Positions 7,560 to 59,910 of a stretch of 64,000 nucleotides of DNA are shown piece after piece. The notes below the pieces were generated by a model. It was not told where the DNA came from. It did not search any database and worked only from the letters and a program-made list of their open reading frames with translations. The stretch covers positions 81,124-145,123 of the forward strand of contig NZ_KN882176.1 in NCBI RefSeq assembly GCF_000934755.1. The letters run 5' to 3'. How positions within the stretch are numbered: position 1 is the stretch's first letter; each line of letters starts with the position of its first letter. The DNA comes from Desulfonatronovibrio magnus (GTDB taxonomy: Bacteria > Desulfobacterota > Desulfovibrionia > Desulfovibrionales > Desulfonatronovibrionaceae). Made by a program: the position numbers and the translations under genes.

Positions 7560-8918
7560 TTAGTCCTGTTTGCTGTGTCTAAGCTGACGCTGGGCAGCCT
7601 GGTACATGAAGGTTCTAATGGCTATGTCGCGGTTGGGCTGAATGGATCCATCATAGGGCGCGTCAAGGTAGGGGACCTTTTTTTCCAAGAGCATGGGTTT
7701 GAGTATGGATGAACAAATTACACTGGGCATGCAGGTAAATGGAAATACATTGACTACGCCATGAAAATTCTCATGAACATATTCCAATGCTCCGCCAATG
7801 CTGATGGCAGCCTCGGTTCCAATATCAAAATTAAAAAGTCTGTCCTTGTCCAGCCTTTCTTCGAGAAGACTTATGGAGTGATCGCCCTGAATATCAAGAT
7901 GTTTGAAAGCCTGGCTGTATACCTGATTTTGACGCCACAGCTGGTATTGTATTTCGATTTTGCTGTCAATCCACTTCCTTGAAGCATCAAACATTCCGGA
8001 AATATCTAAATTTTTCCATGAATTTACCCATGACCTCCTGGTCTCGCGCAAATTAGAATAAGTTACAAAGTTGATCCACTCTCCAAGAGAAGCATCTACT
8101 ACCTCACCGCCATTGGCTTCAATTTCCTTAATGATGTCCTGGTTGGACCTGGGATGGGTTCGCAGGTAAATTTCTCCAATAATGCCTATCCGTGGCTTTC
8201 GAGGCTTGTTTGTATCCATAAGCTCTTTTGCCTCGGCCACTATTTCCGACAGCAATGAGTAAAGAGTCTTAAAGTTTCTGGTTTCAGCAATCCCCTCAAT
8301 GGCCCTTTCCATTCTGATAAGAGCCTGCTCCATGAACTCATCTGTGGAACCCGGCACCTTTTCATATGGTCTTACCCTCCAGACAGTTCTGTCCATAACA
8401 TCAGCGATAATGGTTGCTACATAAGCCAGACGTCTGAAGAGTTTGGATTTTTCAGGAGGAAGAATCATTGAGGACTGATAACCATCTGCTGTGGAAAGGT
8501 AAGTGATGGCAACATTTTCAAATTCAGGGAATTTATCCAGCACTAAACGGTGCAGTTTGTTATACATGCCGAATCGGCATGGGCCATCAGCCTCAGGCAT
8601 GAAATATACATAGTTTTCCGGATTGAATGCGTTTCCCAATCTGTCCTTTTCGTTTTGCAGAAAGTGCAGAACATCTCCCAGGGTAACCTGACATGGGAAA
8701 CACTCCTTACCAGATGTGTACTCTTTACCAAGAGCAAGTCCGGTATAGGTTTCCATTACCTTGGCAGGCACTCCGTAAGCCCGGAATCCTGCAGCGAGAA
8801 GTCTGGACCCAAACGGGGCCATATCAGGGATCAAAAGAGTTTTGCCAGAGAGGTCAAACTGCCCTACATTGGCAGTCAGTCTTTCCTTAAATGAGGAGGT
8901 TTCAGTTGATTTATTCAT
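7560..8918 (-). CDS. 2-hydroxyacyl-CoA dehydratase-like (HgdB/DCCP-type) iron-sulfur protein
   Basis: A 452-residue protein of the HgdB / double-cubane-cluster superfamily, which uses low-potential electrons delivered by an ATP-driven activase. Candidate cluster cysteines are Cys73 and Cys76 (GKECFPCQ), Cys114 (DGPCRFG) and a pair near residues 390-405 (FTCMPSVIC). The activase is encoded just upstream on the same strand (9148-12189). Large single-chain versions with these modules occur in related bacteria; here they are two genes. Substrate unknown. The 229-base gap to the activase is filled with dispersed repeats (8969-9125), which may weaken or break co-transcription. Family confident, function not. 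Confidence 0.8.
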   Translation of the reverse strand: MNKSTETSSFKERLTANVGQFDLSGKTLLIPDMAPFGSRLLAAGFRAYGVPAKVMETYTGLALGKEYTSGKECFPCQVTLGDVLHFLQNEKDRLGNAFNPENYVYFMPEADGPCRFGMYNKLHRLVLDKFPEFENVAITYLSTADGYQSSMILPPEKSKLFRRLAYVATIIADVMDRTVWRVRPYEKVPGSTDEFMEQALIRMERAIEGIAETRNFKTLYSLLSEIVAEAKELMDTNKPRKPRIGIIGEIYLRTHPRSNQDIIKEIEANGGEVVDASLGEWINFVTYSNLRETRRSWVNSWKNLDISGMFDASRKWIDSKIEIQYQLWRQNQVYSQAFKHLDIQGDHSISLLEERLDKDRLFNFDIGTEAAISIGGALEYVHENFHGVVNVFPFTCMPSVICSSILKPMLLEKKVPYLDAPYDGSIQPNRDIAIRTFMYQAAQRQLRHSKQD

Positions 8919-12673: not shown

Positions 12674-13408
12674 TCAGGCCCTTGCCTGTTTTTCCAGGGC
12701 AAGCAAGGGCGTTTTAAGTGGTTTGTTGTCAAGAAGTTCAACCCTTGTTCCGATGAATGAGCCTGCAAAGGGTGGCCAGAATGTCTCATTGATGATGTTC
12801 AGAATACATTTGTCCTTCCACATGGATTTGGTTCCAGGCAAAACTGATCTGGAAAAAGCAGGTTTATTGCCAACAGTTTCCAGGAGCATGGCTTTTAATT
12901 CCCTGAAAGTGAACCAGTTGGCTTGGGCCATTACACTTGATGATCCCATGCGCAGTACTTTTTTGCTGAAGTAGTAAAGAGAATTTTTGTTCAGAGTGCA
13001 GACCAGCATCCCTTTTTTAGTAACTCGCAGTGCTTCGCGAAGAACCTGTTTAGGATCTTCACAAAATTCCAGTACTGTAATGATGGCCGAGAAATCAAAT
13101 TCATTGTCATCAAAAGGAAGGTATTGTGCTCTGCCAAGATGCAGGTCTGCCTTGTTGCCCATTTTTTCTCTCGCTCTGGAGAGCATATTGGCAGAGGCAT
13201 CAATACCATAAACATCAAAGCCTGATTCATAAAAAAGCTCTAAAAACACACCAGTGCCGCAGCCAATATCCAGTAAAGACTGTTTACGTCTAGGCCACGA
13301 TGAAACCAGGTGTTGTATAAGCCGTTTTTCCTGTTGGAAGGCAAATTTTCCAGCCTCAGTTTCAAACCAGTGATCATATTGAAGCGCAAATTTATCTGAT
13401 TCAAACAT
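12674..13408 (-). CDS. SAM-dependent methyltransferase, class I
   Basis: A 244-residue cytoplasmic enzyme of the UbiE/Methyltransf_11 type. The SAM-binding motif I, LLDIGCGTGVF, is at residues 45-55, with an acidic residue ending beta-2 (VYGIDAS) near 70 and the post-I motif AQYLPFDDNEFD near 95. The substrate cannot be read from sequence. The C-terminal half carries many Lys and Trp residues and no extra domain. It follows ilvD on the same strand after 30 bases, so the two are probably co-transcribed, although no functional link is obvious. Confidence 0.8.
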   Translation of the reverse strand: MFESDKFALQYDHWFETEAGKFAFQQEKRLIQHLVSSWPRRKQSLLDIGCGTGVFLELFYESGFDVYGIDASANMLSRAREKMGNKADLHLGRAQYLPFDDNEFDFSAIITVLEFCEDPKQVLREALRVTKKGMLVCTLNKNSLYYFSKKVLRMGSSSVMAQANWFTFRELKAMLLETVGNKPAFSRSVLPGTKSMWKDKCILNIINETFWPPFAGSFIGTRVELLDNKPLKTPLLALEKQARA

Positions 13409-22814: not shown

Positions 22815-23035
22815 GAAAAATTTGAACCGCAAAGGCGCAAAGGACTCAAAGTTAAAGACAATAAAGAAGATATTTTTGAAAATCGGGCATCGGTTTTCAA
22901 AAAGGCTGCCTTATCATTTGCCGCTCCCCGGCAAATGAAAAAATTTCTTTCTTCCTTTGCGCCCTTTGCGTCTTGAGTGAGTCTTCGAACGGGCGGTTAA
23001 AAATATTTTTTTGGGTTGAGGACGAAGCCAGCATT
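22815..23035. repeat. Rep-C element, uninterrupted copy
   Basis: A 220-bp block whose reverse complement lines up with 30010-30370, starting aatgctggcttcg, through aaccgcccgttcg and aagactcactcaagacg, to tcttctttattgtc. Compared with that copy it lacks three short insertions, so it shows the empty sites. It contains a hairpin catttgccg.../...cggcaaatg. Confidence 0.85.
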
Positions 23036-30069: not shown

Positions 30070-30125
30070 CCCCTGTTGAATGGCTGCGCCTACACTTCGT
30101 GTATTTAAATGGTTATCAGGGTAAA
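30070..30125 (+). mobile_element. Mini-P element (56 bp) in Rep-C
   Basis: Inserted between cgttcg and aagactc. It begins CCCCTGTTGAAT; inner hairpins are GGC-TGC-GCC and ACAC-TTC-GTGT; the outer stem is TTGAAT/ATTTAA with one G-T pair. A closely similar element at 52264-52310 occupies the same target motif. Confidence 0.75.
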
Positions 30126-30142
30126 AAGACTCACTCAAGACG

Positions 30143-30196
30143 CCCAGTTAAACCCTGCTGCGCAGGAACGCTTTCAGCGTTGTTAAACCGGGCAGG
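30143..30196 (+). mobile_element. Mini-P element (54 bp) in Rep-C
   Basis: Inserted between gacg and caaaggg. Ends CCCAG and GGGCAGG; outer arms GTTAAAC and GTTAAAC pair with one mismatch; inner hairpins CCTGC-TGC-GCAGG and AACGCT-TTC-AGCGTT. Confidence 0.8.
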
Positions 30197-30240
30197 CAAA
30201 GGGCGCAAAGGAAGAAAGAAGTTTTTCCATTTGCCGGGGA

Positions 30241-30290
30241 ACCCAGTTAAACCCGTCTGCGACGGAGACTACTCCTGTTTAACAAGGCAG
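30241..30290 (+). mobile_element. Mini-P element (50 bp) in Rep-C
   Basis: Inserted between gggga and gcggcaaatg, splitting the loop of the parent hairpin. CCCAG start; outer stem GTTAAAC/GTTTAAC perfect; inner hairpins CCGTC-TGC-GACGG and GGAG-ACTA-CTCC; AAGGCAGG end. Confidence 0.8.
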
Positions 30291-30439
30291 GCGGCAAATG
30301 AAAAGGCAGCCTTTTTGAAAACCGATGCCCGATTTTCAAAAAAATATCTTCTTTATTGTCTTTAACTTTATTTGTTATCTGTTATTTGTTAATTGTTATC
30401 AGGGTAAGGTATTGAATTCAGGCTTTTATTCTTTAACAA

Positions 30440-52205: not shown

Positions 52206-52455
52206 GAAATAGCCTTAGCGCGCGATTGCTTCGCTTTGCACGCAACAAGGATTGCCGAGCTCGCCCCAGTTGAATGGCTGCGTCTGCACTGCGTGTATTC
52301 AACGTGGTAAAAGACTCCCTCGCAATGACACCTGAGCTGCCAGGGATGTAGTTGCGCAAAACCTGTCACCCACGAGGCAGCCTAAGCGACAGAAGCAATC
52401 TTTAAGGTAAAGCCATAATGTCTTGATTTTATTGTTAATACAATTCCAGCTGCAT
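52206..52455 (+). repeat. Rep-G element, filled copy
   Basis: gattgcttcgctttgcacgc, attgccgagctcg, [insert 52264-52310], aagactccctcgcaatgac, acctgtcacccacg, gcctaagcgacagaagcaat. Aligns with the reverse complement of 37975-38106 once the insert is removed. Confidence 0.85.
52264..52310 (+). mobile_element. Mini-P element (47 bp) in Rep-G
   Basis: Starts CCCCAGTTGAAT; perfect outer stem GTTGAAT/ATTCAAC; inner hairpins GGC-TGC-GTC and CAC-TGC-GTG. It interrupts ctcg^aagactc, the same motif as at 30069/30126. Confidence 0.8.
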
Positions 52456-57009: not shown

Positions 57010-57462
57010 AATTTTGCCAGAGCGAGGGGGCGGGCCACAGCAAGTGCCTGGTATCAAATACTTAATTGTCAATTTTGCCCTTTGAAAGAGTCCTGTATCG
57101 CTTTTTTTGGAGCCAAAAAGAGTTTTTTTTCAGCCCCAGTGTACTGAAAGAAGGTACTCGGGGCAGGTGCGAAATAACACCCCAGTGAACCCCCCTGCGG
57201 GTGCTAATGGCTGAGCAATTTCACACGGCAGGGAAACTGGCAGATAAGGCTTCCGCCGCAGGGCGGGGCTGGATTAGTGGGGATTGGCGGACAGAGAAGA
57301 AGAGTTAGGTCCGCTAATTTGCGCTAATCTGCGCGAATAAGAATGAAGAGGGATTAAATATCTGCTTTGCTGATCGCAAAGACAGATAACTTCACCGCAA
57401 GGCGGGGTTGAATTTACATTGTGCTGTGTCGTTGGCGGACCTCTTATAATGGGATCTTGATT
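57010..57462. other. Repeat-rich non-coding region before rloA
   Basis: Contains a short Mini-P-like hairpin (57135-57167), a full Mini-P element (57181-57232), the downstream block aaactggcagataaggctt shared with 59911-59930, and small palindromes such as gcgctaatctgcgc (57330). No gene seen. Confidence 0.6.
57181..57232 (+). mobile_element. Mini-P element (52 bp)
   Basis: CCCAG start; outer stem GTGAA/TTCAC; hairpin CCC-TGC-GGG; second hairpin TGCT ... AGCA; end CGGCAGG. Its flank on the 3' side (gaaactggcagataaggctt) is the same as that of the element at 59860-59910, so the pair may have been duplicated together. Confidence 0.75.
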
Positions 57463-59521: not shown

Positions 59522-59659
59522 ACCGGATGGTCGATCATCACACAAATGAACCGCAAACCCCTTCACCTACTTTTTTAAAGGACGTGCTGCGCTGCCCACC
59601 TGAGCAAAGCACGAGAAAGAAAGAAAAGAATATTGCCCACGAAACACTCAAAAAAACAC

Positions 59660-59751
59660 CCCAGTGAAACCCAGTGAAATTCGCTACGCTGAGACTTCGT
59701 CTATTTCACAAGGCGGGCACCCCACAGGGGACCCCGGTTTCACGGGGCAGG
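59660..59751 (+). mobile_element. Nested Mini-P elements (one inside another)
   Basis: Outer element: CCCAGTGAAA at 59660-59669, resuming at 59718 with CACCCCACAGGGG and ending GGTTTCACGGGGCAGG at 59751; outer stem GTGAAAC/GTTTCAC. Inner element 59670-59717: CCCAGTGAAAT start, stem GTGAAAT/ATTTCAC, hairpin AGAC-TTC-GTCT, end AAGGCGGG. Removing the inner one restores a complete outer element. Confidence 0.75.
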
Positions 59752-59859
59752 CGAAAGAAGAAATAAGAAAGAAAAAGAAGAAGAGATTTGTCCACGAAAC
59801 ACTCGAAATATCACGAAAAGAAGAAAGAAGAAAAGGATACATTATCTGCCATGTAAAAC

Positions 59860-59910
59860 CCCAGTGAAATCCCTGCGGGTGCTCATGGCTGAGCAATTTC
59901 ACAGGGCAGG
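59860..59910 (+). mobile_element. Mini-P element (51 bp, most regular copy)
   Basis: CCCAG; perfect outer stem GTGAAAT/ATTTCAC; hairpins CCC-TGC-GGG and TGCTCA-TGGC-TGAGCA; end AGGGCAGG. It lies in the non-coding stretch 59522-60114, which otherwise holds AG-rich low-complexity DNA (59755-59835) and no gene. Confidence 0.8.

Follow-up and report, generated by a model that had tools for sequence, protein, structure and literature searches.

Mobile three-way-junction mini-elements in Desulfonatronovibrio magnus share their ends with small GIY-YIG-encoding units

Short repeats whose stems change in sequence while a common fold is kept raise the questions of whether the fold is under selection, whether the repeats move, and what might move them. 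Such repeats, here called mini-P, occur in a 64,000-nt stretch of Desulfonatronovibrio magnus DNA (GCF_000934755.1, contig NZ_KN882176.1, 81,124-145,123 of the forward strand), hereafter the window. A first-pass annotation had reported six copies, and all were recovered (30143, 30242, 52265, 57181, 59670, and 59860, two of them shifted by one base relative to the earlier numbers); the motif CCCAGTKRAAY occurs six times in the window against 0.24 expected. The same annotation had described outer stems that vary while staying paired, and this held for GTTAAAC/GTTTAAC (30242), GTTGAAT/ATTCAAC (52265), and GTGAAAT/ATTTCAC (59670 and 59860), but pairing is imperfect at 30143, where the stem has one mismatch (GTTAAAC/GTTAAAC), and decayed at 57181 (GTGAA/TTCAC). 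The reported 3′ GGCAGG or GGCGGG is likewise common to most copies but not to 52265, which ends in GGTAAA and has an irregular inner hairpin. Two further members lie in the window beyond the six listed (from 30070 and from 57134), and the 59670 copy proved to be nested inside another member that had been missed (Table 1). When folded as single-stranded DNA, the copies at 59860 and 30143 form three-way junctions (z-scores in Table 1); those at 59670 and 57181 fold no better than shuffled sequences.

Table 1 Members of the mini-P family in the window, with the basis for each assignment (L numbers are sampled loci).
Position	Strand	Feature	Basis
30070-30125	+	Decayed member, TAAA-tail subfamily (CCCCTGTTGAAT...GGGTAAA)	Clean copies of the composite repeat; their empty site, CGTTCG^AAGACTC, in L013/L028/L021
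30143-30196	+	Mini-element CCCAGTTAAAC-CCTGCTGCGCAGG-AACGCTTTCAGCGTT-GTTAAAC-CGGGCAGG	Model match; fold (z = -2.6); empty site CAAGACG^CAAAGGG in L021, 0 mismatches
30242-30291	+	Mini-element CCCAGTTAAAC-CCGTCTGCGACGG-AGACTACTCCT-GTTTAAC-AAGGCAGG	Strict pattern; model; relatives of the composite repeat with an empty site, in L028 and, on the minus strand, at window 22870-22969
52264-52311	+	TAAA-tail member, GTTGAAT/ATTCAAC, irregular inner hairpin	Sequence; homologue L045 997-1044, with a precise empty site in L021
57134-57167	+	Short single-hairpin member CCCCAGTGTACTGAAAGAAGGTACTCGGGGCAGG	Sequence
57181-57232	+	Decayed mini-element, subfamily of 59860	Model score 20 bits; no three-way junction
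59659-59751	+	Outer member CCCCAGTGAAA...CACCCCACAGGGGACCCCGGTTTCACGGGGCAGG, split by 59670-59717	Uninterrupted relatives in L254 and L039
59670-59717	+	Nested mini-element CCCAGTGAAATTCGCTACGCTGAGACTTCGTCTATTTCACAAGGCGGG	Strict pattern; inserted at GAAA^CACC without duplication (sequence)
59860-59910	+	Mini-element CCCAGTGAAAT-CCCTGCGGG-TGCTCATGGCTGAGCA-ATTTCAC-AGGGCAGG	Pattern; model; three-way junction (z = -3.4)

A larger composite repeat (CCCGTTCG...AAGACTCACTCAAGACGCAAAGGGCGCAAAGG...CATTTGCCGGGG...) extends over 30070-30300 and 22870-22987 of the window and is also present in L010, L014, L021, and L038; it is a landing pad for three mini-elements and is found both with and without them.

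The unit is 33-57 bp long and consists of CCC-N-GTKRAAY / RTTYMAC-N-GGG ends (as an end pattern, CCCNGTKNAAY...RTTNMACNGGGTRA) around usually two small triloop hairpins, with a 4-nt tail that reads CAGG, CAAG, TAAA, TGAA, TCAA, CGAG, or TGAG. A strict pattern that leaves the inner hairpin region free (CCCAGTKRAAN{18,45}TTYMACNNGGCRGG) had 39 matches in the host genome, 19 on the forward and 20 on the reverse strand, against none for a reversed control, and a covariance model built from 11 copies (R1) gave 142 matches in the draft host genome at E ≤ 10, with about 120 at E ≤ 0.01; because the element is quasi-palindromic, some loci were matched on both strands. An Rfam search of the window returned no family at the gathering score, its sole match being a tRNA, and no named element was found, in agreement with the earlier impression that the repeats fit no known family.

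That compensatory changes point to selection for a three-way junction had been proposed from the window alone, and a covariation test bore this out, with strong covariation in all three helices. The seed alignment scored 0.507, compared to 0.137 for shuffles and at most 0.093 for slid partners. Among the matches listed from GTDB contigs, 128 were distinct, and in their alignment, which was fitted to the covariance model and hence is biased towards it, both partners vary in 16 of 20 pairs; double-change cells number 516, compared with 173 for shuffles and at most 113 for slid partners, and the covariation score is 0.382 against 0.103. The outer stem keeps its orientation, with GTKRAAY as the 5′ arm, and covariation falls on positions 3, 4, and 7. 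A structural scanner tolerating at most one mismatch counted GTTAAAC 25 times, GTTAAAT 22, GTGAAAT 19, GTTGAAT 18, and GTGAAAC 15; as this scanner demands pairing, its paired percentages are not independent evidence for covariation, and the claim rests on the strict pattern, the seed alignment, the 128-match alignment, and a GTDB pattern scan in which pairing was not required and 60 of the 74 Desulfobacterota-type hits listed are paired at both free outer positions.

The inner loops bear on which nucleic acid folds. Triloops make up 198 of 224 inner loops and 179 are closed by C-G; 109 read TNC and 18 GNA. TNC is GNA when read on the complementary strand, and GNA loops are a very stable type in DNA, so that the prevalence of TNC favours folded DNA, probably of the strand complementary to the one written. 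Together with the absence of orientation bias relative to genes (see below), this leads us to favour an element that acts as folded DNA and not as RNA. At L388, the first hairpins of the members at 13306 and 17914 differ by an inverted loop region (CTTTCAG versus CTGAAAG), a pair whose sequences suggest inversion of a hairpin arm. L054 (~1275-1385), L237, and L243 contain members of ~105-110 bp in which the usual ends enclose another interior (AGCACTCACTTT...AGTGCTGGG).

To detect past insertion, the flanks of each copy were joined and searched against all sampled loci. Paralogous empty sites were recovered for 213 queries, 137 after identical flanks had been dropped, and 35 non-overlapping sites after filtering; no target duplication was seen at these 35 distinct filled/empty pairs. 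The insert starts with CCC, or with CCCC or TCCC where the opposite side is GGGG or GGGA, and ends 8 nt past the outer stem, so that the 4-nt tail follows GGG. The insert is preceded by a purine at 28 of the 35 sites and followed by C at 27, making R^C the usual junction. Nested insertions in L221 and L235 have 0-mismatch empty sites, as does L024, where (L024/L038) a 33-bp member sits in the arm of another member. Head-to-tail arrays with an exact 54-bp period (L160 6582-6797, Desulfonatronospira MAG CSSed11_143) are the expected outcome if GGCAGG^CCC is itself a target. Precise duplication-free insertion at about 35 filled/empty pairs, nesting, and arrays thus identify mini-P copies as mobile DNA elements; selection for the fold and mobility, which the first-pass annotation had raised as a possibility, are both strongly supported.

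Tail-complementary 4-mers (TTTA, TTCA, CTTG, CCTG) are enriched immediately left of elements (32 of 154, against 3.1% upstream), so that a single inverted site may be what is read at either junction; a left target tetra- or pentanucleotide of the IS200/IS605 type was looked for, and the left flank is only weakly conserved. Insertion into hairpin loops gave striking cases, yet no preference above control (p = 0.2 and 0.5). Integron attC sites or empty cassettes (GTTRRRY/RYYYAAC) were rejected because the junctions fall outside the CCC/GGG stem and not at G^TT of the R box. Among the targets, G-rich degenerate arrays (GGAGTCAGG, GCATGGAGCATGG) in L026, L112, L121, L131, and L248-L253 repeatedly host mini-element insertions. 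A Y1 transposase gene in L144 (5690-6300) is broken by mini-elements, and this locus, with L046, L237, and L243, suggests that Y1 genes are frequent targets.

The family is widespread. Within the same order, 28 of 61 genomes were positive, and the matches listed from the GTDB contig scan fall mostly in Desulfonatronospira, Desulfonatronovibrio, Desulfohalobiaceae, and Desulfobacterales MAGs. Bacteroidota MAGs with 142 and 18 matches have the same outer stem and tails around entirely different inner hairpins, and a 0.8-Mb Patescibacteria MAG (18 matches) and a Staskawiczbacteria genome (5 matches) also combine the same stem and tails with other inner hairpins. Copy number is high in both Desulfobacterota and Bacteroidota, and misbinning, which is possible for single contigs, is unlikely for matches spread over many contigs. 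A plasmid BLAST search with one copy as query gave no match, viral contigs gave three pattern matches, two of which are the same element, and no rRNA gene carrying an element was detected by rRNA motifs in the sampled loci. In G009, a genome with 140 model matches, 67 of 92 sampled elements lie outside ORFs, with 65 of the 92 placed between ORFs; convergent gaps are somewhat favoured and divergent gaps avoided, and orientation relative to co-directional genes is unbiased (20 same, 18 opposite). Counts by replication strand were not clearly biased in this genome, where GC skew is too patchy. Across the sampled loci, the genes with elements on both sides were four unrelated ORFs, none of them recurrent.

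A search for widely separated left and right element halves revealed longer units of 283-350 bp with mini-P ends in the host genome (L046) and in L168, L172, L204, L323, and L326. Their sole ORF, read from the CCC-N-GTKAAATAGCTTGAG end, encodes a protein of ~84 aa with a GIY-YIG domain (PF01541, 6.6e-15), whose nearest solved relatives are the UPF0213 proteins 1zg2 and 1ywl; seven such proteins were aligned and are 59-83% identical to the first (where a nested insert interrupts the gene, the insert was removed before translation, for search only). The gene extends into the right end of the element, ...LKSYLTG-stop being TATTTAACCGGG-TAA-A, and the TAAA and TGAA tails therefore correspond to a stop codon followed by A. 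A RAYT gene is interrupted by the long unit in L046 and L003. Intact RAYT relatives in L004, L100, and L277 read ATAGACATGAACATGG and the uninterrupted gene reads ATGAACATGG; the filled site of L046, ATAGACCTTCA[283 bp]CATGG, places the unit at TTCA^CATGG, with an A^C junction and no duplication. The five bases left of this unit differ from the empty site (CTTCA versus ATGAA); mini-element junctions are clean. The available coding copies look mostly dead, given a nested mini-element at the same codon in five of six GIY-YIG genes and an internal stop in the L046 copy. No GIY-YIG gene was found in the ~1.2 Mb sampled of G009, despite ~140 model hits there, and a GIY-YIG query gave no hits among plasmids and three weak ones among phages. 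In terms of sequence, the link between mini-P and the GIY-YIG units is well supported.

An independent replicate of this arrangement comes from a Patescibacteria MAG (G061), of which 388 kb, about half, was sampled. Three 85-aa GIY-YIG genes lie there at unrelated sites within units of 295-296 bp, which have 19-bp inverted ends TCCCACACATAACTTACAC...GTGTAAGTTATGTGTGGGA (TCCC...GGGA) followed by TGAA. As in the mini-P relatives, the stop codon lies within the right end, which in one copy is longer by a base. Non-coding derivatives of 69-206 bp have the same TCCCACACATAAC...GTTATGTGTGGGA termini and TGAA. The end sequence is unlike that of mini-P, but the plan is the same. Not all GIY-YIG genes are alike, since those in L413 and L419 are without such ends. 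The L413 gene (~7990-8330, from a Patescibacteria MAG) is flanked by direct repeats AACAAACGGAGGCGTGGCTGAGCCCTGCCTGCCGATAGGTAGGGGTCG and is possibly another kind of GIY-YIG unit.

From these relationships we consider it rather likely that mini-P copies are non-autonomous derivatives of GIY-YIG-encoding, palindrome-ended elements, and their mobilisation by the GIY-YIG nuclease is probable. The element would form a branched structure, either single-stranded or cruciform; the nuclease would recognise the folded ends and nick where the stem begins (R^C); and the unit, released by excision or copied, would be joined in trans into a cut target. This scheme builds on the observed conservation of the fold, precision of insertion, nested and arrayed copies, occurrence in several phyla, and ends in common with GIY-YIG units, and adds to them cutting by the nuclease, a single-stranded intermediate, and a joining step, which we infer. 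In the neighbouring SLX1 family there are nucleases that cut branched DNA, so selection for a three-way junction would make sense. We know of no GIY-YIG nuclease that joins ends, and joining would therefore need another activity. The chances seem evenly balanced that these units constitute a new class of element, in which an autonomous form of ~285-350 bp, with an ~84-aa GIY-YIG protein (UPF0213/SLX1-like) as its only gene, yields swarms of three-way-junction mini-elements in several phyla. A literature search of open papers found no description of a REP-like three-way-junction family, of a Desulfonatronospira repeat, or of GIY-YIG mobile elements with inverted repeats, and we provisionally regard the mini-P/GIY-YIG family as undescribed.

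The first-pass annotation had looked to a RAYT gene as partner, and mini-P could indeed be REP-like elements moved in trans by RAYT/TnpA-Y1 (HUH) enzymes that work on folded single strands, in which case the GIY-YIG gene would be a passenger or a separate selfish gene with the same ends. The likeness to TnpA-REP is considerable, with no target duplication, a 4-nt tag beside the hairpin, and a dinucleotide-type junction (PMC8266576), and many of the genomes rich in elements also have numerous Y1 genes (10 in G000, 31 in G009). Y1 loci, however, are without adjacent elements and carry their own ends (GGGGACAG, GGGGTCGG, or GCGCTTGACGCG REP), the GTAG/CGTC tag is absent from mini-P ends, and several element-bearing genomes, all drafts, have no Y1 match (G005, G012, G014, G016, G043, G051, and the three small genomes G061, G062, and G065). 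Only one of the 37 Y1 loci checked had a model match nearby and none carried mini-P ends, and the members inside the L144 Y1 gene are insertions, not cognate flanking elements. A RAYT partner is thus unlikely: RAYT loci carry other ends, and it is the GIY-YIG element that shares those of mini-P.

Spread without a dedicated enzyme, in which host replication or repair would copy palindromes by template switching and ectopic joining, would fit the perfect palindromes and the loop inversion at L388, but we find it improbable in view of the fixed ends, the constant 8-nt 3′ extension, the single-base-precise junctions, and the occurrence of the same ends in three phyla, all of which suggest sequence-specific cutting. 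Strong covariation and the mostly intergenic position of elements in G009 are also what a regulatory or processing RNA selected for its fold would show; we give this reading very little credence, as the balanced orientation in G009 and the lack of an Rfam match speak against an RNA or terminator role, insertion polymorphism and nesting show mobility, and TNC/GNA triloops fit DNA hairpins. No conserved transcript, orientation, or gene partner was seen for mini-P. Derivation from IS110, IS91 (Y2), or group II introns is the most improbable: IS110 and IS91 also insert without long duplications, but among the 61 genomes Y2 is present in 3, a group II maturase in 8, and IS110 in 18, all being absent from most element-rich genomes, and these partners were rejected because they are not co-distributed with the elements.

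Mini-P copies, as putative derivatives of GIY-YIG units, resemble several known systems in part. Like REP/REPIN elements with their RAYT (TnpA-REP), they are short, high-copy, palindromic, and mostly intergenic, with a tetranucleotide beside the hairpin and no target duplication; unlike them, they have a three-way junction with two unlike inner hairpins, no GTAG/CGTC tag, no RAYT link, and ends in common with a GIY-YIG gene. Terminal-inverted-repeat tyrosine transposase (TIRYT) elements (PMC3733652/PMC6006769) occur alongside mini-P and are also compact, carrying one gene between GGGG-rich inverted ends, but they encode Y1 and end in GGGGACAG or GGGGTCGG, whereas mini-P reads CCC-N-GTKRAAY...GGG-CAGG; the Y1 genes between GGGG[AT][CG]A[CG] inverted ends that define a TIRYT are present in these genomes, with ends other than those of mini-P. 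Two multi-copy Y1 families of ~187 and ~341 aa, which overlap as a pair in L004 (37-1594) and are found also in L003, L006, L100, L272, L277, L296, L297, and L301, have GGGGTCGG- and GGGGACAG-type inverted ends and are TIRYT-like. In the flanks of L008, L101, and L103, a separate ~317-aa RAYT lies between GCGCTTGACGCG palindromes and probably forms with them a classical REP/RAYT system of these genomes.

MITEs of classical insertion sequences are likewise non-autonomous and have ends in common with a longer coding unit, but mini-P inserts without target duplication, its parent would encode a GIY-YIG nuclease and not a transposase, and its inner arms change freely yet stay paired. The double-hairpin elements or GC clusters of fungal mitochondria are mobile short hairpins with compensatory changes; mini-P differs from them in being bacterial and in having a three-way junction and coding relatives. 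Free-standing GIY-YIG homing endonuclease genes and the GIY-YIG-coding rRNA insertions of CPR bacteria also have a GIY-YIG nuclease as sole gene. In a survey of CPR rRNA insertions, the nearest description that the literature search found, every GIY-YIG protein was encoded in an insertion unlike either type of intron, the sites of these insertions were poorly conserved, and many short insertions were without an ORF (PMC11270868); here, by comparison, palindromic ends, short derivatives, and unrelated dispersed targets are defined.

If the GIY-YIG nuclease does move mini-P, transposition can be driven by a structure-specific endonuclease that has neither a transposase nor a recombinase domain, and selection would be acting on the three-way junction as its substrate. 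Some of the UPF0213/COG2827 GIY-YIG proteins, whose usual annotation is that of repair nucleases, would then be selfish elements, and the non-intron GIY-YIG insertions and short ORF-less insertions of CPR rRNA genes (PMC11270868) would gain a testable origin. The autonomous form would count as one of the smallest known mobile elements of its kind, and it would supply the parent of a bacterial palindromic repeat family present in at least three phyla.
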